NCBI GenBank assembly: GCA_017461625.1 | Contig: JAFTXJ010000007.1 | Coordinates: forward strand, 38,240-102,239 | DNA length: 64,000 nt | Direction: 5' to 3' | Origin: Clostridia bacterium | Lineage (GTDB): Bacteria; Bacillota; Clostridia; Oscillospirales; Acutalibacteraceae | Part shown: piece by piece, positions 4,998 through 26,700 of the stretch | Layout of the letters: every line of letters begins with the position of its first letter | Position numbering within the stretch: position 1 is the first letter of the stretch | Notes under the pieces: generated by a model | The model's input: the letters and a program-made list of their open reading frames with translations, nothing else | Database searches by the model: none | What the model was told of the DNA's origin: nothing | Position numbers and translations under genes: made by a program

Positions 4998-6239
4998 TTA
5001 GTTATCGTTATACCCAAAATTTCTGCTCTGTAAAGTGTCTTTCCACCATGATTCTCTATCTAATACTATACAGTCATCAACTCTTGCATTGTAATTTTCT
5101 AAAATTGAATATTGGAAGTTTTGCTTTATGTATTCAAATCCACTTTCATCGACAATCTTTTTAAACTCTACATTTCCACCATGACCATTCTTTACATAGT
5201 CTGACCAACGGGATAATAACATACCGTTGATACTCGTGGCTGAGCCAACATACAGTTTTCCGTTATTTTTATCAGTAATAAGATATATCGCTTTTTGATT
5301 TTCCAAAGCAGCTATCCAACTTTTCTTTTTGCGTTCAAAAATGTATTGTAATTGTGTGAAAGAGAGACGAACCTTATCATATCCAGGAAATTCATCTCCA
5401 TCGTAAATACCAGGGAGGACTTCTAGCACTTCCAACTCATCACAAACCGTATTATAAAACATACCTTGTGTTTGTGCTGTCTTATGATATTTAACAATTA
5501 CCCTTCCGAAATACTGTCTATATTCAGAAAGCTCTTCTCCTATATAATTTATGCCGTTCAATACATCAAGTTCTTTTGTCACTTTTTTAATTGTAGTTAA
5601 AAGCCAAGTATCATAAGCTAAATTCAAGAGACAAATAGCAATCTGTCCAACATTAAAATATCTTTGCTTTTTTCGCCAAAATAACCATTGTGAATTTACA
5701 ATTTCAGGATTTTTTAAATATAAATCCATCGGATCGTTATTACCATCATTTTGATTGAATCTGATTTTAACATTATTCCCATTTGAATCAGCAATTCTCA
5801 AAAGGTCATTCAATTTTATTTTATTCATATTCTCGTTCCTATCAAATTCTTTCAATTTCATTAACCACTTTTTGATACTTCCGTTTTTCAAAAAGCCTAA
5901 CAGAGCACCATCACAATATTTTTCTGCTCGCACAGCCCCCAACAAAAGTGCACATATCGCATTAGGAGGCAAATTATCAACATTAGCATTATGCATTGAT
6001 TCTATATTCCACTCTATGCCATTGTCATTTAAAATCGCAGCATAATTTTTAAAATCTAAGTTTTCAGCACAACTATACACATCTTTAATAAAAGCATTTA
6101 CTACTCTGGAATATATTATAGACGGTATTCTAATGGTTTTCTGAATCGAGCCATTGTTTATATTATCTGTTGACCATTCTCCTAAATAGTCAGTCATAAA
6201 CAGTTCAATATATTTCGTTAACACATCATACTTACCCAT
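4998..6239 (-). CDS. GIY-YIG nuclease-domain protein with unrecognised N-terminal region
   Basis: About 413 residues from the ATG at 6239 (MGKYDVLTKY), chosen because GGTGGG lies about 7 bp upstream. Longer in-frame starts run into the lysS terminator hairpin. The last ~100 residues resemble GIY-YIG endonucleases: AIYLITDKNNGKLYVGSA holds the two short strands, followed by a conserved Arg (RWSDY) and a Glu near the end (DRESWW). The first 300 residues match nothing I recognise. The gene appears richer in A+T than its neighbours and stands alone between GH43 and lysS, suggesting recent acquisition as a defence or selfish-element gene. A restriction-like role is possible but unproven. Confidence 0.62.
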   Translation of the reverse strand: MGKYDVLTKYIELFMTDYLGEWSTDNINNGSIQKTIRIPSIIYSRVVNAFIKDVYSCAENLDFKNYAAILNDNGIEWNIESMHNANVDNLPPNAICALLLGAVRAEKYCDGALLGFLKNGSIKKWLMKLKEFDRNENMNKIKLNDLLRIADSNGNNVKIRFNQNDGNNDPMDLYLKNPEIVNSQWLFWRKKQRYFNVGQIAICLLNLAYDTWLLTTIKKVTKELDVLNGINYIGEELSEYRQYFGRVIVKYHKTAQTQGMFYNTVCDELEVLEVLPGIYDGDEFPGYDKVRLSFTQLQYIFERKKKSWIAALENQKAIYLITDKNNGKLYVGSATSINGMLLSRWSDYVKNGHGGNVEFKKIVDESGFEYIKQNFQYSILENYNARVDDCIVLDRESWWKDTLQSRNFGYNDN

Positions 6240-6272
6240 ACAATATCCCACCATTCCTAATCTTATCAAACA

Positions 6273-6300
6273 GCCCAAGATACCGTAAGATATCTTGGGC
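6273..6300 (-). terminator. Hairpin after lysS
   Basis: A 10-bp perfect stem GCCCAAGATA / TATCTTGGGC lies 13 bp past the lysS stop. The following T content on the minus strand is weak. A near-identical 14-mer TACCGTAAG(A/T)TATC is repeated 20 bp apart across it (6281 and 6301). Confidence 0.55.
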
Positions 6301-6312
6301 TACCGTAAGTTA

Positions 6313-7818
6313 TCAGTCTAAAGATTTCATCGTGGGGAAAAGGAGAACATCTCTTATTGCCGCTGAATTGGTGAGGAGCATCACCATTCTGTCGATACCA
6401 AAGCCGATACCTCCTGTTGGTGGCATACCGTATTCAAGAGCACGAAGGAAGTCTTCATCAGTTGTGTTAGCCTCTTCGTCACCCTGTGCAAGAAGTGCTT
6501 CCTGAGCCTTAAAGCGTTCTCTCTGGTCAATGGGGTCATTAAGCTCTGAATAAGCGTTAGCCATTTCCCAGCCGTTCATAAAGAACTCAAAGCGTTCAAC
6601 ATAGTCGGGATCTTCCGGCTTTTTCTTTGTAAGGGGTGAAATTTCGATAGGATGATCCATAACGAAAGTGGGCTGAATAAGGTGTTCCTCAGCAAACTCT
6701 TCAAAGAAGAGAGAAAGAATATCGCCTTTGCCGTGTCTGTCTTCATATTCAACATGGTGCTTGTCAGCCAAAGCTCTTGCATCTTCAAGAGTTTTAACTT
6801 CATTCCAGTCAATACCTGCATATTTTTTAACAGCGTCAACCATTGTGATGCGTTCAAAGGGCTTACCAAGGTCCATTTCAATACCGTTATAAACGATTGT
6901 GGTTGTGCCGAGCACTTCCTGTGCAACGTGACGGTAAAGATTTTCTGTTAAATCCATCATACCGTGGTAATCGGTGTATGCCTGGTATAACTCCATAAGA
7001 GTAAATTCAGGGTTATGGCGTGTGTCAAGACCTTCATTACGGAACACTCTGCCGATTTCATAAACCTTTTCAAGACCGCCTACAATGAGTCTCTTAAGAT
7101 AAAGTTCAAGAGATATACGAAGCTTGAAATCTTCACTCAAAGCGTTGAAATGAGTTTCAAAAGGTCTTGCGGCAGCACCGCCCGCATTAGCAACAAGCAT
7201 AGGGGTTTCAACCTCAAGGAATCCCTGTGAATCAAGGTAGTTTCTTACGGCTCTGATGATAAGTGAGCGCTTCATAAGAGCATCTTTAGAATCTTTATTC
7301 ATAATGAGGTCAACATAACGCTGACGGTATCTTGTGTCTGTATTGGTAAGACCGTGGAACTTTTCGGGAAGAGGGAGAAGTGACTTTGTAAGAAGAGTAA
7401 TCTTCTCAGCATGGATAGAGATTTCGCCTGTTTTTGTTTTGAAAACAGAGCCCTCAATACCGATAATATCACCTATATCAAGCTTTTTGAAATCCTTATA
7501 TTCGTCTTCACCGATGCTGTCACGAGCTACATAGGACTGGATATTACCCTTAAGATCCTGAATATTACAGAATGAAGCCTTACCCATAATACGCTTTGAC
7601 ATCATACGTCCTGCCACGCAGACAGTCTTACCCTCAAGCTCGTCAAAATTTTCTTTAACACATACACTGTGATGAGTCTGATTAAATTTTGTGATTACAA
7701 ACGGGTCTCTGCCATCAGCCTGAAGTGCCTCGAGCTTATCTACTCTTATCTGTCTCAATTCGTTAATATCCTGCTGTGCCTCCTGCTGAGGTGCATTAAC
7801 GTTCTTTTCTTCTGCCAT
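6313..7818 (-). CDS. lysS: Lysyl-tRNA synthetase, class II
   Basis: A 501-residue class II LysRS, the normal length. An N-terminal OB-fold anticodon-binding domain (residues ~50-150, with GKTVCVAGRMMSKR) precedes the catalytic core. Motif 1 (FLEVETPML), motif 2 (FRNEGLDTRHNPEFT) and motif 3 (GIGFGIDRMVMLL) are all present. It charges tRNA-Lys with lysine. It lies about 70 bp downstream of greA in the same orientation, and the greA promoter probably serves both. No T-box leader is seen between them. Confidence 0.97.
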   Translation of the reverse strand: MAEEKNVNAPQQEAQQDINELRQIRVDKLEALQADGRDPFVITKFNQTHHSVCVKENFDELEGKTVCVAGRMMSKRIMGKASFCNIQDLKGNIQSYVARDSIGEDEYKDFKKLDIGDIIGIEGSVFKTKTGEISIHAEKITLLTKSLLPLPEKFHGLTNTDTRYRQRYVDLIMNKDSKDALMKRSLIIRAVRNYLDSQGFLEVETPMLVANAGGAAARPFETHFNALSEDFKLRISLELYLKRLIVGGLEKVYEIGRVFRNEGLDTRHNPEFTLMELYQAYTDYHGMMDLTENLYRHVAQEVLGTTTIVYNGIEMDLGKPFERITMVDAVKKYAGIDWNEVKTLEDARALADKHHVEYEDRHGKGDILSLFFEEFAEEHLIQPTFVMDHPIEISPLTKKKPEDPDYVERFEFFMNGWEMANAYSELNDPIDQRERFKAQEALLAQGDEEANTTDEDFLRALEYGMPPTGGIGFGIDRMVMLLTNSAAIRDVLLFPTMKSLD

Positions 7819-15909: not shown

Positions 15910-16040
15910 CCTTAAAATATATAATAAACAAGAACAAAATGTTAATTTTTTGTCATTATTTACAAAACAAAACTGAATAATACTGTTTTCGGCTGACTAT
16001 ACTTATTTTAAAACATATTTTATAAAGAAAGGCTGTTATT

Positions 16041-16370
16041 ATGAAAGACCTCCGAACAGAAAGCCAGAAGCTTTTTCACACATTTGTTACTCTTGCTGTT
16101 ATCATTATGAGTGTAACTTTGATTATTATGGGTGTTTTTGCCGCTAAAAATAACACTGCAATGATTGATTCGGGTATTACCCCTGCAATGATTTATGCAA
16201 GAAGAGAAAACACGCAGATTTCTGTGCAGATTGGTGAATCGCTTTATGAAAACACGCCCAAAAAAGAAATTCCGCTAACAAAGCTGGCATCTTTTGCACC
16301 TGCACCCATTAACGGAATTTATATTATTTATAAAAATATTTGTGAATTAACCGATTCATTTCTTCCTTGA
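16041..16370 (+). CDS. Small single-pass membrane protein, unknown function
   Basis: A 109-residue protein preceded by AAAGAAAGG. One hydrophobic helix spans about residues 14-35 ([22 protein letters not shown]) and is followed by a polar, probably external region. I recognise no domain. Its 3' end overlaps the 3' end of the convergent XRE regulator gene by 15 bp. Coding potential is supported by the ribosome-binding site and sensible codon use, but it could be species-restricted. Confidence 0.6.
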
Positions 16371-17294
16371 AAAAAGCACAACCAATCCGCCGTAAAGCAC
16401 CGCTGCACAAGGCCAGATTACCCACGTTGTACGCCAATCTGAAGAAATAAAGCTCCAAGCTAAATAAGCGGCAAGCACAACCGACCAATACACGCCTGCT
16501 ATTTTTTCAAGTTTATTTTCGGCCTCTTTTCTTTGCGGAGTGTAGTCACCCTGTTGCAAAAGCTGTTGATATGAGCCGTGAGTCATCCCTGCCTTTATAA
16601 AAAGAGCCACCGCAACACTGACTATTATAAAAAGCAACAGAACACTTATAATCACACCTCGGTCACTGTCATCAAAAGCGGCACAAATAACAGTAGGTAC
16701 AATGCTCACAATGCACAAAACAACACCTGCTACTATATACGAAGCAAAGGTTTTGCTGTAAGCCGACCTACCTTTTTCCAGAAAGTCCTCAGTACGCATA
16801 TCAATGCTGAACTGCTCTTTTGTGATATGGTTATATTTCCCGAGGTTTAATCCGCTATAGATAAAAAGACCGACGGCTGTTGCAATTATAACAAGAAACA
16901 ACGGCACACCTACACCTGCCATAACGGCATCACTTAAGCTAAATCCCTCCAAAGCAACAAGAACACACGGGGATAAAATGCACAACATAACACCTATTGC
17001 AATTGAAGATGAAAACTTTTTAACCACCTCAAGATAAGCCGATGCTTCTTCTATAGAAACCGTTCTTAAAAGCTTAGTTGGCGATTCTTGCTCTTCCGGC
17101 GGTTGATTTTTGAGAAGATAATCGGTGCTTACACCAAAAATCTCACTCAATTTAACTATGCGGTCAAGGTCGGGAATCGACTCCCCCGTTTCCCATTTAG
17201 AAACCGATTGCCTCGAAACATCAAGCTTTTCAGCTAATGCCTCTTGAGAAAGACCGTTTCTTTTTCTTAATTCAAAAATTTTATCTGACAACAT
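16356..17294 (-). CDS. XRE-family transcriptional regulator with a multi-pass membrane domain
   Basis: A 312-residue protein from the ATG at 17294, which has AAAGGAG 8 bp upstream. Residues 1-60 form a Cro/CI helix-turn-helix with the classic [28 protein letters not shown] linker then leads to about six hydrophobic helices from residue ~90 to the C-terminus. DNA-binding domains tethered to the membrane in this way are common in Clostridia and may sense envelope or peptide stress. No target operon is evident; it could be autoregulated. It stands alone between carB and a small membrane-protein gene. Confidence 0.85.
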
Positions 17295-17361
17295 ATAATC
17301 AGCTCCTTTCATCACCTGTATTATACAACATTTTCAGGTTGACAACTACCAAGTGCGGTTG

Positions 17362-17396
17362 AAAAAACGGCAACCAACAGTTGCGGTTGCCGTTTT
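17362..17396 (-). terminator. Terminator of argF-carA-carB
   Basis: A 12-bp stem AAAACGGCAACC / GGTTGCCGTTTT with a 9-nt loop and a T-run, 18 bp after the carB stop. Confidence 0.87.
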
Positions 17397-17413
17397 CTTT
17401 AGCTTAAAGCTTT

Positions 17414-20400
17414 TTAATATTCTACTACGCCTTCATAAACCTTGTTTGCATCACCAAGGAGGTAAATGTTTTCACCGTCATATCTTACGGTTACATCGCC
17501 GCCACGCATTTTAACTGTGATGTCTTCGTTAAGGTTACAAAGACCTTTTTCAATTGCTGCTACAACAGTTGCACAAGCACCTGTACCGCATCCAAGGCTT
17601 TCACCGTTGATAGCACGCTCGTAGCAACGCATCTTAATTGTATTTTTGTTAACAACCCTTGCAATTTCTGTGTTGATATATTCGGGGAGGAAACCTGAGT
17701 TTCTCATTGTGTCGCCCAATTCGTTCATATCAACATCTTCAATTCTGTCACCGAAGATTACGCAGTGAGAGTTGCATACAGTTACGCAGTTGATCTTATA
17801 TTCCTTGCCGTCAACAGTGAGAGGATAATCGATAATCTTATCCATATCCACGTTAACGGGAATGTTTTTGGGATCAAGGTCGGGCTTACCGAGGTTTACT
17901 CTTGCAGAGCGGATTTCACCGTTGTATGAGTAAAGCTTAACCTCAATAACACCGCTTGCTGTTTCAATTTTCATCTCTTTCTTAGGAACAAGACCCTGGT
18001 CATAGAGATATTTTGCGGCGCAACGGATGCTGTTAGCAGCCATAAGAGTAACAGTACCGTCGGTGTTGAATACTCTCATTTTTGCATCGGCAATATCAGA
18101 CTTTTCAAGGAATACCGTGCCGTCAGCACCGATACCGTAGTTACGGTCAATGAAGTTGATTGTGAGTGATTCGGGTGAATCAATATCACCGTCAAAATTA
18201 TTGAAGTAAATATCGTCGTTACCTGAAGCCTGCATCTTTGTGAAGTTGATGCGTTTCTTTGTTTCTCTCATTCTGTTGATGTCAACAAGCTCAGTATTCT
18301 TCTGAGTGAAGCGGCTTGCAATAATATCTGCAAGAGCATTGGCTGTATCAAGAGAAGTAAGGCAGGTGATTGAAAGCTGAACAGCTCTTCTGTGAAGTCT
18401 GATGAAGTTTTCAATAGACTTTTCTTTAGTTGAGCCTGTGTAAACAATGTAGTTTACTGCACCTGTTTCAAGGAGCTTAATCATATCATCGCCCTTGTTG
18501 ATGCTGCTTACAACCTCAACATCTACGCCAAGGCTTCTAATTGCGTTAGCAGTGCCGTCAGTAGCATAAATCTTGAGACCGACATCGCTGAACTTCTTGG
18601 CAAGGGGGATAACTTCGTCCTTGTCCTTATCCTGAACGGTGATGAGAACACCACCGTTGTGATGCATATGGTGATATGTGCTTCTTTCGCAAAGCTTGAA
18701 GCCTGCTGAAACAAGACCCTTGAAAAGTGCTTCATTAAGGCTTCTTGCCAAGCCGAGCACTTCACCTGTTGATTTCATCTGCGGGCCAAGCTCTGAGTTA
18801 ACATCACTAAGCTTTTCAAATGAGAATACGGGAACCTTAATTGCAAAGTAAGGCGGAGTTTTATAAAGGCCTGTGCCAAAACCAAGGTCACGGAGCTTCT
18901 GACCAACCATAACCTTTGTTGCAAGCTCAACCATAGGTACATTTGTAACCTTACTGATGTAAGGGATTGTTCTTGAAGCTCTGGGGTTAACCTCGATAAC
19001 ATAAAGCTCGTTCTGATAGAAGAGATACTGAATATTAACAAGACCCTTTGTGCCCAGTGAAAGAGCAAGATTTGTTGAGCATTCAACAACCTTTTCAATC
19101 ATTGTATCGGTAAGAGTAAAGGGTGGGTAAACTGCGATTGAGTCACCACTGTGAACACCCGCACGCTCGATATGTTCCATAATACCGGGGATAAGAATAT
19201 CTTCACCGTCGGAAATTACGTCAACTTCGAGTTCTTTGCCCATCATATATTTGTCAACAAGTACAGGGTTTTCAATCTTCTGTGAAAGAATGATGTCCAT
19301 ATACTGTCTAACATCGTTTTCGTTATAAGCGATTGTCATATTCTGACCGCCGATAACATAAGAAGGACGTAGAAGAACAGGATAGCCAAGCTCTTCAGCA
19401 GCTTCAAGGGCTCCGTCAACATTCATAATTGTGTGAGCCTTTGGTCTGCGGATATTGAAAGATTCAAGAAGAGCTTCAAAACGCTCTCTGTCTTCTGCGA
19501 TGTCGATACCCTCAGCAGATGTGCCGAGAATCTGAATTCCGTTGTCATCAAGGAACTTTGTAAGCTTGATAGCAGTCTGACCACCAAAGGCAACAACTAC
19601 ACCGATGGGATTTTCAACCTTGATAACGTTCATAACATCTTCTTCGCTCAACGGCTCAAAATAAAGCCTGTCAGCAGTGTCGAAGTCGGTTGAAACTGTT
19701 TCGGGGTTATTGTTGATAATAACAACCTCGTAGCCAAGCTCCTTAAGAGTCCATACGCAGTGAACGGAAGAGTAGTCAAATTCAATACCCTGACCGATAC
19801 GGATAGGACCTGAACCAAGAACGATAATCTTCTCTTTATCGGACTTAGGAAGAGCCCTTGATTCGCAGTGATTATCGTATGTTGAGTAGAAATAAGGTGT
19901 TTCTGCGGCAAACTCTGCAGCACAGGTGTCAACCATTTTATAAACTGCATCTCTGGTTTCTTCAGGCAATTTGCCTGCAAGGCGTTTAATAGCCTCGTCG
20001 GTATATCCGTACTTCTTACCTTTGATGTAATAATCTTCATCAAGGTTGCCTGACTCAAGCATTTTTTCGTAATTTACGAGATTGAGAAGCTTTGAAAGGA
20101 ACCATTTGTCGATTCTTGTGATTTCATTGATTTTATCAATGCTTACGCCCTCTTTAAGAGCTCTGAAAACAGTAAACAAACGAAGGTCATCGCAAACACC
20201 GAGGCGCTCAACAACATCCATTCCATCAGGGAACTTTTTATAGTTAAGAGTATCAAGTGAAATTTCCGCACCACGAACAGCCTTCATAATTGCCATTTCA
20301 AATGAGGGGGCAATAGCCATAACCTCACCTGTGGCTTTCATCTGTGTGCCCAACTTACGGTTAGACTGAACAAATTTTTCAAAAGGCCATTTGGGGAACT

Positions 20401-21466
20401 TAACAACAACATAGTCAATTGTCGGCTCAAAGCAAGCACAGGTTTTGCCTGTGATGTCATTTCTGATTTCATCAAGGGTATAGCCCAAAGCGATTTTGGA
20501 TGTAACCTTAGCAATGGGGAAACCTGTTGCCTTACTTGCAAGAGCAGATGAACGTGAAACACGAGGGTTAACCTCAATAACAGCGTATTCAAAGCTGTCG
20601 GGGTTAAGAGCGAACTGGCAGTTACAACCGCCCTCGATTCCAAGCTCGGTAATAATATCAAGAGAAGCTTTGCGAAGCATCTCATATTCTTTTATTGAAA
20701 GAGTAACAGCAGGAGCAATAACAATACTGTCACCTGTATGAACACCTACTGGGTCAATATTTTCCATTGAGCAGATTGCGATAGCGTTACCAACGCTGTC
20801 ACGCATAACCTCAAACTCAACTTCTTTCCATCCGTAGATATATTTTTCAACAAGTACCTGTGTGATCGGTGAAAGAAGAAGACCGTTTTTAGCGATAATT
20901 TTAAGCTCTTCAACGTTATTGGCAACACCGCCGCCTGCACCGCCAAGAGTGAAAGCAGGGCGAATGATAACGGGATAACCGATTTTTTCAGCGATTGCAA
21001 TTGAATCTTCAAGAGTTTCAGCAATGTCTGAAGGGATGCAAGGCTGACCGATTTTAACCATTGTGTCACGGAACATCTGACGGTCTTCAGCCTTGTCAAT
21101 AGCTTCATAGTTAGTGCCGAGAAGCTTAACGTTCATTTTGTCAAGATAGCCGCTTTTTGAAAGCTGCATAGCAATGGTAAGACCTGTCTGACCGCCCAAA
21201 CCTGCAAGCAAGCTGTCGGGGCGTTCTTTTTCGATAATACGCATTACTGTATCTTCTGTAAGAGGCTCAAGATAAATTTCGTCAGCAAGAGCCTTGTCTG
21301 TCATAATTGTTGCAGGGTTTGAGTTAACGAGAACAACATCAAGACCTGCATCTTTAAGAACACGGCAAGCCTGAGCACCTGCATAGTCAAACTCAGCAGC
21401 CTGACCGATAACGATAGGACCGGAACCTATAACTAATACTTTTTTAATATCTTTATTTAACGGCAT
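17414..21466 (-). CDS. carB: Carbamoyl-phosphate synthase large subunit fused to a diaminopimelate epimerase-like domain
   Basis: A 1350-residue protein. Residues 1-~1065 form a complete CarB: two ATP-grasp halves (GGAGGGVANN region near 170; LLRPSYVIGGQNM in the second half) and the C-terminal MGS-like allosteric domain (IYATDGTANAIRSLG near 960). The last ~285 residues, from MRETKKRINFTKMQ, are homologous to DapF: NYGIGADGT, HCVIFGDRIEDVD and GCGTGACATVV are recognisable. DapF uses two Cys. The second (Cys-1293) is present, but the first position is Ala-1143 (LMAANSIRC instead of MCGNGIRC). The epimerase domain may be inactive, regulatory or repurposed. No stop or frameshift separates the domains. 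It overlaps carA by 1 bp. Confidence 0.93.
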   Translation of the reverse strand: MPLNKDIKKVLVIGSGPIVIGQAAEFDYAGAQACRVLKDAGLDVVLVNSNPATIMTDKALADEIYLEPLTEDTVMRIIEKERPDSLLAGLGGQTGLTIAMQLSKSGYLDKMNVKLLGTNYEAIDKAEDRQMFRDTMVKIGQPCIPSDIAETLEDSIAIAEKIGYPVIIRPAFTLGGAGGGVANNVEELKIIAKNGLLLSPITQVLVEKYIYGWKEVEFEVMRDSVGNAIAICSMENIDPVGVHTGDSIVIAPAVTLSIKEYEMLRKASLDIITELGIEGGCNCQFALNPDSFEYAVIEVNPRVSRSSALASKATGFPIAKVTSKIALGYTLDEIRNDITGKTCACFEPTIDYVVVKFPKWPFEKFVQSNRKLGTQMKATGEVMAIAPSFEMAIMKAVRGAEISLDTLNYKKFPDGMDVVERLGVCDDLRLFTVFRALKEGVSIDKINEITRIDKWFLSKLLNLVNYEKMLESGNLDEDYYIKGKKYGYTDEAIKRLAGKLPEETRDAVYKMVDTCAAEFAAETPYFYSTYDNHCESRALPKSDKEKIIVLGSGPIRIGQGIEFDYSSVHCVWTLKELGYEVVIINNNPETVSTDFDTADRLYFEPLSEEDVMNVIKVENPIGVVVAFGGQTAIKLTKFLDDNGIQILGTSAEGIDIAEDRERFEALLESFNIRRPKAHTIMNVDGALEAAEELGYPVLLRPSYVIGGQNMTIAYNENDVRQYMDIILSQKIENPVLVDKYMMGKELEVDVISDGEDILIPGIMEHIERAGVHSGDSIAVYPPFTLTDTMIEKVVECSTNLALSLGTKGLVNIQYLFYQNELYVIEVNPRASRTIPYISKVTNVPMVELATKVMVGQKLRDLGFGTGLYKTPPYFAIKVPVFSFEKLSDVNSELGPQMKSTGEVLGLARSLNEALFKGLVSAGFKLCERSTYHHMHHNGGVLITVQDKDKDEVIPLAKKFSDVGLKIYATDGTANAIRSLGVDVEVVSSINKGDDMIKLLETGAVNYIVYTGSTKEKSIENFIRLHRRAVQLSITCLTSLDTANALADIIASRFTQKNTELVDINRMRETKKRINFTKMQASGNDDIYFNNFDGDIDSPESLTINFIDRNYGIGADGTVFLEKSDIADAKMRVFNTDGTVTLMAANSIRCAAKYLYDQGLVPKKEMKIETASGVIEVKLYSYNGEIRSARVNLGKPDLDPKNIPVNVDMDKIIDYPLTVDGKEYKINCVTVCNSHCVIFGDRIEDVDMNELGDTMRNSGFLPEYINTEIARVVNKNTIKMRCYERAINGESLGCGTGACATVVAAIEKGLCNLNEDITVKMRGGDVTVRYDGENIYLLGDANKVYEGVVEY

Positions 21467-22536
21467 TAGTTTTTACCTCCCATCATTTTAACAAATTCAT
21501 CATATAAAAACTCTGTATCCATCGGACCTGAACCGGCTGCAGGATGGAACTGAACTGAAAAAGCTTTTTTATCAGGATATTTAACACCTTCACAAGTGCC
21601 GTCGTTAGCATTTACAAATGCCAACTCGCCAACACCGTTGAGGCTATCAGCATTAACAACATAGCCGTGGTTCTGGCTTGTGATGTAAGTCTGACCGATT
21701 GCAAGGTTTTTAACCGGCTGATTTGCACCACGGTGACCGTATTTGTGTTTTTCGGTTTTACCACCGTTGGCAAGTGCCATAATCTGATGACCGAGGCTGA
21801 TACCAAACATAGGAGTTTTGCCCATAACAGCCTTAATCTGCTCAATTGAATAAGCATTGTCGGCAGGGTTTCCGGGACCGTCTGAAAGAACAACACCATC
21901 AGCACCGAGAGCGAGAATATCGTCAGCAGATGTGTCACAAGGAACACTCACTACTTTGCAACCACGCTTTGTGAGTTGCTTTACGATGTCACTCTTTTCA
22001 CCGTAATCAACAACAGCCACTGTATAATTTGAGTCGCCTTCAGCTTCATAAGTTTCTGTTTCACCGCTTGAAACAGTCTTAACAGCGTCAACAACTTTAT
22101 AATTTTTAAGTTCTTCTTTAATCTCATCTGTGATTTCATCAACGATTTTTGCGTTCATAACACCCTTTTCACGAATAATCTGTGTAATCTCACGGGTATC
22201 AACATCGCAAATACCAACTATACCTTCTTTTTTGAGGTACTCGTCAATATCACCGTCACAGCGGAAGTTTGAGGGAGTGTCACACCACTCTCTGACTACA
22301 ACGCCTTTAACATAGCTCTTTTTACCCTCGGTATCTTCATAAATCATACCGTAGTTACCGAGAAGAGGGAAGGTCTGAACCACAATCTGACCGCAATAGC
22401 AAGGGTCAGTTAATGTTTCTATGTAACCAACCATACCTGTTGTGAAAACGAGCTCACCAAGGGTTTCGCCTTCTGCACCAAAGCGTTTACCCTCAAAAAT
22501 GTGACCGTCTTCAAGAACAATAAAAGCTTTTTTCAT
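21466..22536 (-). CDS. carA: Carbamoyl-phosphate synthase small subunit with degenerate glutaminase site
   Basis: A 356-residue protein starting at the ATG at 22536 (MKKAFIVLEDG), which fits the family N-terminus. The N-terminal CarA domain (GELVFTTGMVGYIETLTDP, GNYG) and the class I amidotransferase domain are intact in length. However, the nucleophile-elbow Cys is replaced: MFGISLGHQ with Ser-247 (codon AGC, 21796-21798). The catalytic triad motif reads QFHPAAGSGPMD, keeping His-331 but with Ala-333 in place of Glu (codon GCA, 21538-21540). CarA normally hydrolyses glutamine and passes ammonia to CarB. With both changes glutaminase activity is unlikely, so the complex may use free ammonia. 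It lies between argF and carB. Confidence 0.93.
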   Translation of the reverse strand: MKKAFIVLEDGHIFEGKRFGAEGETLGELVFTTGMVGYIETLTDPCYCGQIVVQTFPLLGNYGMIYEDTEGKKSYVKGVVVREWCDTPSNFRCDGDIDEYLKKEGIVGICDVDTREITQIIREKGVMNAKIVDEITDEIKEELKNYKVVDAVKTVSSGETETYEAEGDSNYTVAVVDYGEKSDIVKQLTKRGCKVVSVPCDTSADDILALGADGVVLSDGPGNPADNAYSIEQIKAVMGKTPMFGISLGHQIMALANGGKTEKHKYGHRGANQPVKNLAIGQTYITSQNHGYVVNADSLNGVGELAFVNANDGTCEGVKYPDKKAFSVQFHPAAGSGPMDTEFLYDEFVKMMGGKN

Positions 22537-22570
22537 ATCCATCATCCTTTTATAAAAATCCTGAACTGAA

Positions 22571-23476
22571 TTAATCTGCCATTAACTTTACCATAATTGC
22601 TTTCTGAACGTGTAAACGATTTTCTGTCTGTTCAAAAATCTCATCTGCGTGCTGTTCAAAAACCTTTTTGGTAATTTCTTCTTCCTTGTGAGCAGGAAGA
22701 CAGTGAAGCACAATGGCATTACTCTTGGCAACTTCCGTTACATTATCGTTAATCTGATAGCCCTCAAAAGCTACCCGTCTTTCTTTAATTTCATTTTCCA
22801 TACCCATTGAAGCCCAAACATCGGTATAAAGAACATCTGCATTTTCTGCAGCCTCTTTAACATCGGTTGTTAAATGAAATCTTCCTGTTGAAAGTGCCCA
22901 TTTCACTACATCGTCATCAGGCATATAATCTTCCGGGCAGGCAATACTCACATCCATACCCACTTTAAGTCCGCCGACGATAAGTGAATTCGCCACGTTG
23001 TTACCGTCACCGATAAAACACAGCTTTTTATTTTCAAAAGAACCCTTATATTCCCTTATAGTCTGCAAGTCAGCCATAGTCTGGCAAGGGTGAGAGTAAT
23101 CGGTAAGTCCGTTGATAACAGGCACTGAAGAATATTGAGCGAGTGTCTCTGCCTCTTCATGCTCAAAGGTTCTGATAACGATACCATCAAGGTAGCGTGA
23201 AAGAACTCTTGCAGTGTCTTCAATCGGCTCTCCCCTGCCCATCTGAGTGTTGGTGGAGCTTAAGAATAAAGCACTGCCGCCAAGCTCGTACATACCAACC
23301 TCAAAAGAAACTCGGGTTCTTGTTGATGACTTAGTAAAAATCATACCCAAGGACTTGTCCTGTAAATATTTATGAGGGATTTTTTTACGCTTTTTATCTT
23401 TAAGTTCATCAGCTAAATTGAGAATAGAAATAATCTCATCATAGCTTAAATCTGACATTTTTAAAAAGTGTTTCAT
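22571..23476 (-). CDS. argF: Ornithine carbamoyltransferase
   Basis: A 301-residue enzyme from the ATG at 23476, which has GGAG 8 bp upstream; a GTG nine bases earlier is less well placed. The carbamoyl-phosphate site STRTRVSFE is near residue 52, HPCQTMADL near 130, and the ornithine-binding loop with the catalytic Cys reads VLHCLPAHKEEEI near 268. It makes citrulline from ornithine and carbamoyl phosphate in arginine synthesis. It is the first gene of argF-carA-carB, so the carbamoyl phosphate made by this atypical synthase is probably destined for arginine. Confidence 0.96.
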   Translation of the reverse strand: MKHFLKMSDLSYDEIISILNLADELKDKKRKKIPHKYLQDKSLGMIFTKSSTRTRVSFEVGMYELGGSALFLSSTNTQMGRGEPIEDTARVLSRYLDGIVIRTFEHEEAETLAQYSSVPVINGLTDYSHPCQTMADLQTIREYKGSFENKKLCFIGDGNNVANSLIVGGLKVGMDVSIACPEDYMPDDDVVKWALSTGRFHLTTDVKEAAENADVLYTDVWASMGMENEIKERRVAFEGYQINDNVTEVAKSNAIVLHCLPAHKEEEITKKVFEQHADEIFEQTENRLHVQKAIMVKLMAD

Positions 23477-23531
23477 AGGTTTCACTCCAAAGGGGCAACT
23501 AACAAATTGACCCTAAAATCCTTTTCATAAT

Positions 23532-23560
23532 ATTATACAATTACAGGAACTTATTGTCAA
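23532..23560 (-). promoter_or_regulatory. Promoter of argF-carA-carB
   Basis: Perfect TTGACA (23555-23560) and TATAAT (23532-23537) with a 17-bp spacer on the minus strand, about 55 bp before the argF start. Confidence 0.82.
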
Positions 23561-23590
23561 TAAAATTATTTTATCTTCTAAAAAGTTTTT

Positions 23591-23604
23591 TGTATAAATA
23601 TTCA
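23591..23604. promoter_or_regulatory. Candidate ArgR/AhrC operator (ARG box)
   Basis: TGTATAAATATTCA fits the ARG-box pattern TGNATWWWWATNCA and lies about 30 bp upstream of the argF -35 hexamer. Its position upstream of, rather than on, the promoter is slightly unusual for simple repression. Confidence 0.45.
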
Positions 23605-23628
23605 TTGAATTTCAGTAAATATACATTG

Positions 23629-23650
23629 ATATACATCAAAATATGTATAT
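23629..23650. repeat. Perfect inverted repeat upstream of argF
   Basis: ATATACAT and ATGTATAT arms (8 bp each) are separated by CAAAAT, 25 bp from the candidate ARG box. It could be a second operator half or simply AT-rich chance. Confidence 0.4.
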
Positions 23651-23681
23651 ATTCATTTTTGCAATTATCTGTAAACATTCC

Positions 23682-23717
23682 AAAACAGCGTACACCGGTT
23701 AAAGTGTACGCTGTTTT
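23682..23717 (-). terminator. Terminator of the PFOR gene
   Basis: A 14-bp perfect stem AAAACAGCGTACAC / GTGTACGCTGTTTT with an 8-nt loop, 9 bp after the PFOR stop. Confidence 0.85.
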
Positions 23718-23725
23718 ACAGTTAA

Positions 23726-26700
23726 TTATTCAGCGTCAGGAGCGTAGAGAGCCTGGAGCTTAACAAGATGGTCATATCTTGCCATAGCAGTAGCCTCTGC
23801 CTGACTGAAGAGAGTTTCTGCTCTTTCGGGGAATGAGCGAAGGAGAGAAGCATAACGGCTTTCGTTCTTGATGAAGTCCTGATAGCCGGCTGATGGAGCC
23901 TTGCTGTCGAGAACGAAAGGATTCTTGCCTTCTGCTGCAAGAGCAGGATTATATCTGAAGAGGTTCCAATAACCACAGTCAACAGCCTTCTTCATTTCTG
24001 CCTGGCAGTTCATCATTCCGCCGCCCTTGATACCATGCATTTCGCAAGGTGAGTAGCAGATGATGATAGAAGGTCCGTTGTAAGCTTCAGCTTCTTTGAT
24101 TGCTTTGAGAGTCTGATTCTGGTCAGCACCCATAGCGATCTGAGCAACGTAAACGTAACCGTAGCTCATAGCGATTTCTGAAAGGCTCTTCTTAGCAATA
24201 GCCTTACCTGAAGCTGCGAACTGAGCAACCTGGCCGATGTTTGAAGCCTTAGAAGCCTGACCGCCTGTGTTAGAGTAAACTTCTGTGTCGAATACCATAA
24301 TGTTTACATCTTCATGAGCAGCGAGAACGTGGTCAACACCGCCGAAACCGATGTCGTATGCCCAACCGTCACCACCGAAGATCCAAACAGATTTCTTTGA
24401 AAGGTATTCTTTATTCTTAAGGATAGATGCACAATGATCGCAACCTGTAACTTTTTCAAGTTCAGCAACAAGAGCGTCAGTAGCAGCAGCATTCTTTTCA
24501 CCGTCGTTAACAGTGTCAAGGTATGCAGTTGCAGCTGCCTTGAGTTCGTCAGAAGCCTTGTCAGAATCAAGGATTTCGCCAACCTTAGCGATAAGGTTAT
24601 CACGGATAGCCTTCTGACCAAGGAACATACCGAAACCATGCTCTGCGTTATCTTCAAAGAGTGAGTTTGCCCATGCAGGACCCTGACCCTTGCTGTTTAC
24701 AGTGTAGGGAGATGTTGCTGCAGGACCACCCCAGATTGAAGAACAACCTGTTGCGTTTGAAATATACATTCTGTCACCGAAGAGCTGAGTAACAAGACGA
24801 GCATAAGCTGTTTCAGCACAACCTGCGCAAGAACCTGAGAACTCAAGCAAGGGTTTCTTATACTGGCTGTTGATAACAGTCATATTAGCTGTTGTTTCAG
24901 GCTTTTCAGTTACGTTTGCTACACAGTAATCAAATACTGCCTGCTCAGCATCCTGTGATTCACGAGCAACCATCTTAAGTGAGTTTGTGGGACATACGCC
25001 AACACAAACGCCACAACCCATACAATCCATAGGAGATACTGCAAGAGTATATGTGTAGTTAGTTTTAACGATAGGTTTAGCTGATGTTTTGATGTTTGCA
25101 GGAGCATCTGCAAGCTCTTCTTCGTTCATAGCGAATGGACGAATTGTAGCATGAGGACATACGAATGAGCACTTATTACATTTTGCACAAGTTGCTGCAT
25201 CCCATTCAGGAACGAGAACTGCAACGCCTCTCTTTTCGTAAGCAGATGCACCGTGTTCAAAAGTACCGTCAGCATGGTCAACGAAAGCAGAAACAGGAAG
25301 TGAGTCACCGTCCATCTTAGAAACGGGCTTCATAATACCGTCTACCATCTTAACAAGCTTTGCGGGACCTTCTGCTGCTTCTTCAGCGGCACCGTCAACA
25401 GCGTTAGCCCAATCAGCAGGAACATCAACCTTAACGAAAGCAGAAACACCGGCATCGATAGCCTTGTGGTTCATGTCAACAACATCCTGGCCCTTCTTGA
25501 GGTAAGATCTTGTTGCAGCGTCTTTCATATACTGAACAGCTTCTTCAATAGGCATAACCTTTGCAAGAGCAAAGAAAGCAGCCTGAAGAATTGTGTTAGT
25601 ACGCTTGCCCATACCGATCTGAGCAGCAAGGTCAATAGCATTAACAGTGTAAAGCTGAATGTTGTTGTTAGCGATATAACGCTTTGCTTCAGCAGGCATA
25701 TGCTTATCAAGCTCGTCTGCTGACCACTGGCAGTTAATAAGGAATACACCGCCGGGCTTAACGTCGTTAACCATCTTGTAGCCCTTCATAACGTATGAGG
25801 GGTTGTGGCAAGCTACGAAGTCAGCCTTGTTGATATAATAGGGGCTCTTAATCTGCTTATCACCAAAACGAAGGTGAGAAACAGTGATACCACCTGTTTT
25901 CTTTGAGTCATACTGGAAGTATGCCTGAACATATTTATCAGTGTGGTCACCGATGATTTTGATTGAGTTCTTATTAGCACCAACAGTACCGTCACCGCCA
26001 AGACCCCAGAATTTGCACTCGATTGTGCCTTCTGCTGCAGTGTTAGGAGCGTTGTCCATCTCTTCAAGTGAAAGATGAGTAACGTCATCGTTGATACCCA
26101 TTGTGAACTGTTTCTTAGGAGCGTCTTTCTTGAGCTCATCATAAACAGCGAAGATGCTTGCAGGAGGAGTATCCTTTGAACCGAGACCGTAACGGCCGCC
26201 GATTACCTGAGCCTGTCTGCCTGTTGCAGCAAGAGCGGCAACAACATCAAGGAAGAGAGGTTCACCAAGTGAGCCGGGTTCCTTAGTTCTGTCAAGAACA
26301 GCAATCTTCTTAACTGTTGAAGGAATAGCTTCAACAAGCTTTTCTGCTGAGAAAGGTCTGTAAAGACGAACTTTAACAAGACCAACCTTTTCACCCTTAG
26401 CGGTAAGGTAATCAATAACTTCTTCTGCTACGTCGCAGATTGAACCCATAGCAACGATGATGTTTTCAGCGTCGGGAGCACCGTAGTAGTTGAAGAGTTT
26501 GTAGTCTGTGCCAAGTTTAGCGTTAACCTTGTCCATATATTCTTCAACAATGCCGGGAACTGCATCGTAATATTCATTACATGCTTCTCTGTGCTGGAAG
26601 AAGATATCGCCGTTTTCGTGTGAACCACGCATTACGGGGCGGTCAGGGTTAAGAGCACGTTTACGGAATGCATCAACTGCATCCATATCGCACATTTCTT

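Follow-up and report, generated by a model that had tools for sequence, protein, structure and literature searches.

Which nitrogen donor serves a carbamoyl-phosphate synthase (CPS) whose glutaminase has lost its catalytic residues? This question is raised by a 64,000-nucleotide stretch of contig JAFTXJ010000007.1 of a Clostridia bacterium (assembly GCA_017461625.1; hereafter the window), which holds an argF-carA-carB::dapF cluster on its reverse strand (Table 1). Its small subunit, CarA, has Ser-247, His-331 and Ala-333 at the positions of the Cys-His-Glu triad that characterizes glutamine-hydrolysing CPS II. An earlier reading of this DNA (the original prediction) had taken the serine and alanine codons as natural losses of the nucleophile and of the triad Glu, with the His kept, and had proposed an ammonia-dependent enzyme. 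Both replacements and the remaining His are borne out by the codons and by alignment to E. coli CarA. The ammonia proposal gains support from sequence comparison, namely about 20-26 separate losses of the triad, purifying selection on the broken subunits, an intact synthetase with conserved ammonia-gate residues, and 14 near-complete genomes that yielded no other CPS. We consider it very probable that the CPS of this operon no longer hydrolyses glutamine, that the dead CarA is structural and that CarB uses free NH3 to supply ArgF.

In the mechanism we propose, CarA would be kept as a catalytically dead small subunit, presumably bound to CarB and holding it in a working form. CarB would take free NH3 from the cell, turn it into carbamate and phosphorylate this to carbamoyl phosphate, which would pass to the adjacent ArgF. 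Plentiful gut ammonia plausibly drove the repeated loss of the glutaminase, and in some lineages CarA would have been deleted outright. According to the title of a 1987 study by Rubino et al., E. coli CarB reportedly uses NH3 in vivo to form carbamoyl phosphate.

The triad in the window CarA and its closest relatives

The window CarA belongs to the CarA family over its full length, matching TIGR01368 with 418.7 bits (cut-off 307.35) and NF009475 with 427.2 bits (cut-off 221), and both of its Pfam domains, PF00988 and PF00117, are matched over their length. The nearest PDB sequence is 1c30/1c3o, which we take to be the engineered E. coli C269S mutant; it reads GISLGHQ in the alignment, with Ser at the same nucleophile position. 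The engineered enzyme keeps His and Glu in its sequence, whereas the window CarA is a natural protein and has lost the Glu as well. The vertebrate CPS1 entries 5dot and 6uel were matched at E ~4e-60. The original prediction had also noted that in vertebrate CPS1 the Cys is likewise a Ser and the donor is free ammonia, which agrees with the account in PMC4655335 that human CPS1 is unable to use glutamine, Ser294 replacing the Cys, and takes external ammonia. Other factors may add to this, as bullfrog CPS1 is described there as keeping the triad and yet being unable to use glutamine.

We examined whether the Ser/Ala pair occurs in other genomes of the same genus. It is found in G005 and G009, whose CarAs are 94% and 92% identical to the window CarA, and in the named record L191 (JAFTWE010000014.1, a metagenome-assembled genome from roe deer colon), which is probably the same genome as G005, since their CarB sequences are identical. 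The same pair in G005 and G009 therefore does not stem from a sequencing error, and with different breaks in many other lineages, error and chimaera were both rejected. The triad is intact in five further genomes of the genus (G003, G012, G014, G015 and G017) and broken differently in four, with Cys-to-Gly and His-to-Gln in G002, Cys-to-Gly in G006 and His-to-Gln in G010 and G013. As an order-wide trait, the pair was rejected for the loci seen, where it is confined to the window, G005/L191 and G009, and Gly and other changes occur elsewhere. The Ser/Ala pair was thus seen in only three genomes of one genus, while loss of the glutaminase in general reaches far wider, beyond the extent that the original prediction had assumed.

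Recurrence of the loss and selection on the broken subunit

Searches of the window genome, the genus and the family, together with region fetches and a scan of named genomes, yielded 220 loci with a CarB relative, 208 of them fused to DapF. As resemblance to the window protein was the basis for choosing these loci, the counts hold for this sample and the proportions are not population frequencies. After exclusion of 24 fused loci, in which the CarA match is incomplete or CarA is cut off or not reached by the contig, the remaining 184 comprised 127 with an intact triad, 49 with a broken one and eight without CarA upstream (127, 46 and eight after removal of three probable duplicates with identical CarB). 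On a quick FastTree phylogeny of CarB (195 rows), scored for intact versus broken only, the broken triads require 26 losses if regain is disallowed and 24 changes if it is allowed; when weakly supported branches were collapsed and pooled, 22 (support <90) and 20 (support <95) losses remained. Glutaminase loss is thus estimated to have arisen many times independently, with about 20-26 separate losses on the CarB tree.

The loss also takes many forms. At the nucleophile position the 49 broken CarAs have Gly in 36 cases, Ser in six and still Cys in seven; the triad lacks three residues in 16 of them, two in 24 and one in nine, and the His is replaced by many different residues. This bears on the possibility that CarA, despite its dead triad, still acts as an amidotransferase by means of an alternative nucleophile or a different donor. 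Such an enzyme would fit those cases in which the triad is partly kept, such as the His-331 of the window and the nine CarAs that lack a single residue. However, 40 of the 49 have lost two or three residues with the His variously replaced, the Gly present in 36 is incapable of acting as a nucleophile, and human CPS1, in which Ser likewise replaces the Cys, is reported not to use glutamine (PMC4655335), and we regard this possibility as very unlikely.

In six loci (L085, L093, L204, L210, L250 and L266), 9-24 bp separate the end of argF from the CarB match, without CarA between them, and these loci sit at two places on the CarB tree. In two of these genomes, G328 (95% complete) and G184 (97% complete), a genome-wide search at E 1e-30 found no CarA.

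Beyond the fused loci, the motif G-[IVM]-[GSR]-L-G-H-Q was sought as a DNA pattern in 391 genomes drawn from the class. It occurred at 46 places in 44 genomes, compared with five matches of the reversed pattern, and 30 of the 46 were fetched, one of them being the window itself. Among the other 29, 12 carry a CarA that has Gly instead of the nucleophile and precedes a CarB, 15 are without CarA, and two (L339 and L340) hold different class I amidotransferase domains that lack a CarB neighbour and likewise have Gly at the nucleophile position. The 12 (L333, L335, L337, L338, L341-L346, L354 and L357) come from ten other families of the class, which means that glutaminase loss is not limited to the family of the window; as these loci are 3 kb long and end inside CarB, a DapF fusion would lie outside their view.

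We then considered whether the broken CarAs are still maintained. The ratio of nonsynonymous to synonymous substitution rates (dN/dS) between pairs in which both CarAs are broken was 0.04-0.24 for the glutamine amidotransferase (GATase) domain and 0.03-0.11 for the N-terminal domain, and in broken pairs it was 0.014-0.054 for CarB and 0.006-0.074 for the DapF domain. Intact pairs gave 0.04-0.09 for the GATase domain, with one outlier of 0.30 and one pair without nonsynonymous change. Across all pairs compared, no ratio could be had from one broken pair with identical sequences, one pair is a repeat of another, and dS is >1 in several. In addition, 48 of the 49 broken CarAs align over essentially their full length in one open frame, the remaining one being cut by the contig end. 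These values indicate that the broken CarAs stay under purifying selection, and free decay of the gene was rejected in view of the low dN/dS and the full-length frames.

The same data bear on the view that CarA is a decaying, functionless pseudogene and that CarB works alone on ammonia, which we hold to be improbable. The six argF-carB loci without CarA speak for it, as do the faster evolution of CarA than of CarB in the window, G005 and G009 (92-94% versus 99% identity) and the somewhat raised dN/dS of the GATase domain in several broken pairs. However, the dN/dS of the broken domains (0.03-0.24) is far below 1 and the frames are essentially intact. Gly at the nucleophile position would ease the strained backbone of the nucleophile elbow. 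The preference for Gly, the commonest replacement, is consistent with relief of this strain once catalysis is no longer selected, and suggests that the fold is maintained.

Over 27 positions that we take to form the CarB active site, 23 are identical in all 58 rows with a broken or absent CarA (including L190, an unfused CarB with its CarA elsewhere), except for one N301T, and the other four (208, 754, 756 and 787) vary in intact rows too. In the window CarB, 23 of the 27 are as in E. coli and both ATP-grasp sites are intact. In CarA, Ser47 (E. coli numbering), which presumably belongs to the glutamine site, is kept in 12 of the 49 broken CarAs versus 131 of 137 intact ones, and Asn240, which we take to neighbour it, is also relaxed. 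The residues C232, A251 and A314 (E. coli numbering), which we assume to be the ammonia gate, are kept in 58, 57 and 58 of the 58 rows, respectively. Their equivalents in CPS1 are named in PMC4655335. Of the effector positions in the MGS domain of the window CarB, K954, T974 and T977 are kept, while K993 is replaced by Ser and N1015 by Tyr, and the residues at the latter two also differ from those of the other CarB of the same genome, which suggests an altered allosteric control.

Sources of nitrogen and uses of carbamoyl phosphate

To what extent is a broken CPS the only one in its genome? A search for any CarA covered 36 genomes whose CarA is broken or absent, and in 33 of these CarB and PyrB (aspartate carbamoyltransferase) were sought too; 20 of the 33 reach a completeness of 90% or more, and their contamination does not exceed 5%. 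In 14 of the 20, all at least 93% complete, there was one CarB, an intact CarA was not found and PyrB was over its cut-off; 12 of these have a broken CarA (G172, G401, G228, G225, G262, G177, G120, G146, G215, G170, G290 and G171) and two have no CarA at all (G328 and G184). The other six comprise G018, G298 and G072 with a second CPS, G005 with a second CarB cut by the contig end, G145 with an intact orphan CarA, and G153, where CarB is unfused, an intact CarA lies at another place and there is no loss. The other plausible source of carbamoyl phosphate is carbamate kinase, which was found in none of 21 genomes, including the 14, compared with two of 14 control genomes. With a broken or missing CarA beside the only CPS, an aspartate carbamoyltransferase present and no carbamate kinase found, free ammonia would be the likeliest nitrogen donor in these 14 genomes.

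The missing carbamate kinase and the neighbouring argF could also be read in the opposite direction, with the CPS running backwards to make ATP from the carbamoyl phosphate of citrulline, delivered by ArgF, in place of that kinase. A partial back-reaction of CPS is known, and the match to ornithine carbamoyltransferase is silent on the direction of flow. However, 32 of the 33 genomes have PyrB over its cut-off and hence presumably need carbamoyl phosphate, and in the 14 near-complete genomes this CPS is the only one found; a reversed CPS therefore seems most improbable.

The genome of the window itself holds a second CPS, as the original prediction had suggested looking for. Its contig C13 carries guaA-pyrG-purF-carA-carB-dapF-aminotransferase (carA at 5556-6614; names other than carA, carB and dapF were assigned by eye from the translations), with an intact CarA triad (ICLGHQ, YHPES) and an intact, separate DapF. 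Its CarA is only 47% identical to that of the window, and its relatives in the genomes searched (64-100% identity) have the triad intact in 11 of 11 cases, a purF neighbourhood having been checked for part of these. Since the second, purF-linked CarAB is intact, it is plausible that this genome splits arginine synthesis, on the broken argF-linked CPS, from pyrimidine synthesis, for which carbamoyl phosphate would presumably still come from glutamine. This would resemble vertebrates, in which a separate glutamine-dependent CPS (CAD) is described as serving pyrimidines beside CPS1 (PMC6022934). The dedication to arginine contained in the original prediction is thus plausible for the window, from the adjacent argF and the second CPS, and cannot hold in those genomes where the enzyme is the only CPS.

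Several observations weigh against free ammonia as the donor. A review names glutamine as the physiological donor of the E. coli CPS, extends this to all CPSs of bacteria, and states that use of ammonia needs very high concentrations that are likely physiologically irrelevant (PMC6245113). The assemblies are drafts, so a second CPS might have escaped detection, and the completeness of the window genome is 86.6%. Glutaminase loss showed no association with an argF neighbour (1.4 same versus 1.2 opposite among 15 independent pairs). The broken GATase domains are likely somewhat relaxed, though far from neutral, as their dN/dS tends to lie above that of intact pairs bar the outlier, and the nine broken CarAs that lack one triad residue might keep weak activity. 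Finally, the intact CarA of C13 could in principle pair with the window CarB, and G145 and G244 each carry an intact orphan CarA (L276 and L277) in addition to a broken CarA beside their only CarB, so glutaminase loss does not always mean ammonia alone. As a separate observation, the orphan CarA of G145 lies close to a separate dapF.

These last cases speak for an arrangement in which CarB-DapF is fed glutamine-derived ammonia by the intact, purF-linked CarA, the local CarA being regulatory or vestigial. However, another CarA was not found in 14 of the 20 near-complete genomes, the local CarA has its full length, overlaps the start codon of carB and evolves under purifying selection, and the two CarAs of the window genome share only 47% identity. 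We judge such borrowing quite unlikely, and favour direct use of free NH3 by CarB.

The distribution of the loss among hosts was examined in 58 named fused loci (from the range L191-L270), with host labels taken from RGIG titles, which name the animal, and from the isolate prefix RUG, which we take to stand for rumen. Of 25 loci with a ruminant label, 18 had a broken or absent CarA, compared with four of the 33 others, which may themselves include ruminants. Only five phylogenetically independent pairs were available (3.7 versus 0.1, short of significance), and a link between glutaminase loss and ruminants is therefore a hint only.

How does this enzyme compare with known systems? The window CPS is a variant of a known enzyme, not a new kind of system. 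It shares with ordinary bacterial CarAB (CPS II) the CarA and CarB families, the gene order and the catalytic residues of CarB, and differs from it in the broken triad and the DapF domain attached to CarB. As in vertebrate CPS1, the synthetase halves are intact, a small-subunit-like domain is kept with a dead glutaminase, and the enzyme would feed an ornithine carbamoyltransferase. Unlike CPS1, it is bacterial, is encoded as two separate open frames and so forms two chains, has DapF after CarB, and is of separate origin; moreover, the bacterial losses have many origins, Gly is the usual replacement and the enzyme is sometimes the only CPS found. A shift from glutamine to ammonia is also reported for CPS III of Alcolapia fish, although that enzyme is described as keeping its triad and having a glutamine-binding residue changed instead (PMC7657897). 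Full-text literature searches, judged by titles and the openings of abstracts and so weak evidence of absence, found neither a natural bacterial CarA without its nucleophile nor a CarB-DapF fusion.

If free ammonia is indeed the donor, many gut bacteria would repeatedly break the glutamine rule given for bacterial CPSs (PMC6245113). They would provide independent replicates of the change behind the vertebrate urea-cycle enzyme, in which one could ask what other changes in the enzyme follow glutaminase loss. The loss would also mark bacteria that route free gut or rumen ammonia directly into arginine and pyrimidines, with relevance to nitrogen use in ruminants, and such bacteria would be predictable from sequence, as the replacements are visible in any genome.

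The fused DapF domain and the layout of the cluster

The original prediction had overlooked that CarB (residues 1 to about 1050) is followed in the same frame by a DapF domain (residues 1073-1348). This domain is similar to free-standing DapF in its family match (TIGR00652), in most substrate-site motifs and in its second catalytic Cys, and differs from it in the fusion and in its first catalytic Cys, at a site that we take to be Cys73 in H. influenzae numbering, where Ala stands instead (MAANSIRC, compared with MCGNGIRC in the separate DapFs examined), so that one of the two catalytic cysteines is left. The CarB-DapF fusion is common in the family of the window, with more than 100 frames among the matches listed, and the first Cys is intact in some of them (e.g., G015/L047) and Ala, Gly or another residue in others. 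On C13 of the window genome, carB and dapF are adjacent but separate, which suggests that the fusion arose from such neighbouring genes. An association between loss of the glutaminase and loss of the first DapF Cys was suggestive only (2.7 versus 0.2 among 20 independent pairs, median p 0.25).

In 11 of 30 genomes searched (G172, G401, G228, G225, G262, G177, G120, G171, G328, G184 and G205), the only DapF found is the fused domain without its first Cys. These 11 genomes seem to lack a canonical diaminopimelate epimerase and must either need no epimerase, have another route to meso-diaminopimelate or have an epimerase with a different mechanism. The low dN/dS and the kept ligand motifs of the fused domain lead us to guess at a binding or regulatory role. 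A broader and speculative proposal, which we think rather unlikely to hold in full, is that gut and rumen Clostridia turned their CPS from glutamine to ammonia at least about 20 times, as a counterpart of CPS1 and sometimes as their sole CPS, and that the fused DapF of the window lineage may act as an amino-acid-sensing switch, with a role like that of N-acetylglutamate binding in CPS1.

Table 1. Features of the argF-carA-carB::dapF cluster, in window positions
Feature	Position	Strand	Support
argF, ornithine carbamoyltransferase, 304 aa, heads the cluster	22571..23485	-	TIGR00658, 412 bits (cut-off 280.85)
carA, small subunit of CPS, 356 aa, glutaminase triad broken	21466..22536	-	TIGR01368, NF009475, Pfam
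Ser-247 codon AGC, site of the nucleophile Cys (E. coli C269)	21796..21798	-	
His-331 codon CAT, triad His kept (E. coli H353)	21544..21546	-	
Ala-333 codon GCA, site of the triad Glu (E. coli E355)	21538..21540	-	
carB::dapF, single open frame of 1350 aa	17414..21466	-	
CarB part, residues 1-1050: two ATP-grasp halves, oligomerisation and MGS allosteric domains	18317..21466	-	NF003671, 1443 bits (residues 1-1052); Pfam
Fused DapF domain, residues 1073-1348, pseudo-epimerase	17423..18250	-	TIGR00652, 215.6 bits (cut-off 114.65)
Ala-1143 codon, site of the first catalytic Cys of DapF	18038..18040	-	
Cys-1293 codon, second catalytic Cys of DapF kept, motif GCGTGACA	17588..17590	-	

An Rfam scan of window positions 16000-24500 gave no match. 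The carA stop codon overlaps the ATG of carB::dapF (TAATG), and an alternative in-frame ATG for carA at 22545 would add MMD to the N-terminus of the protein.

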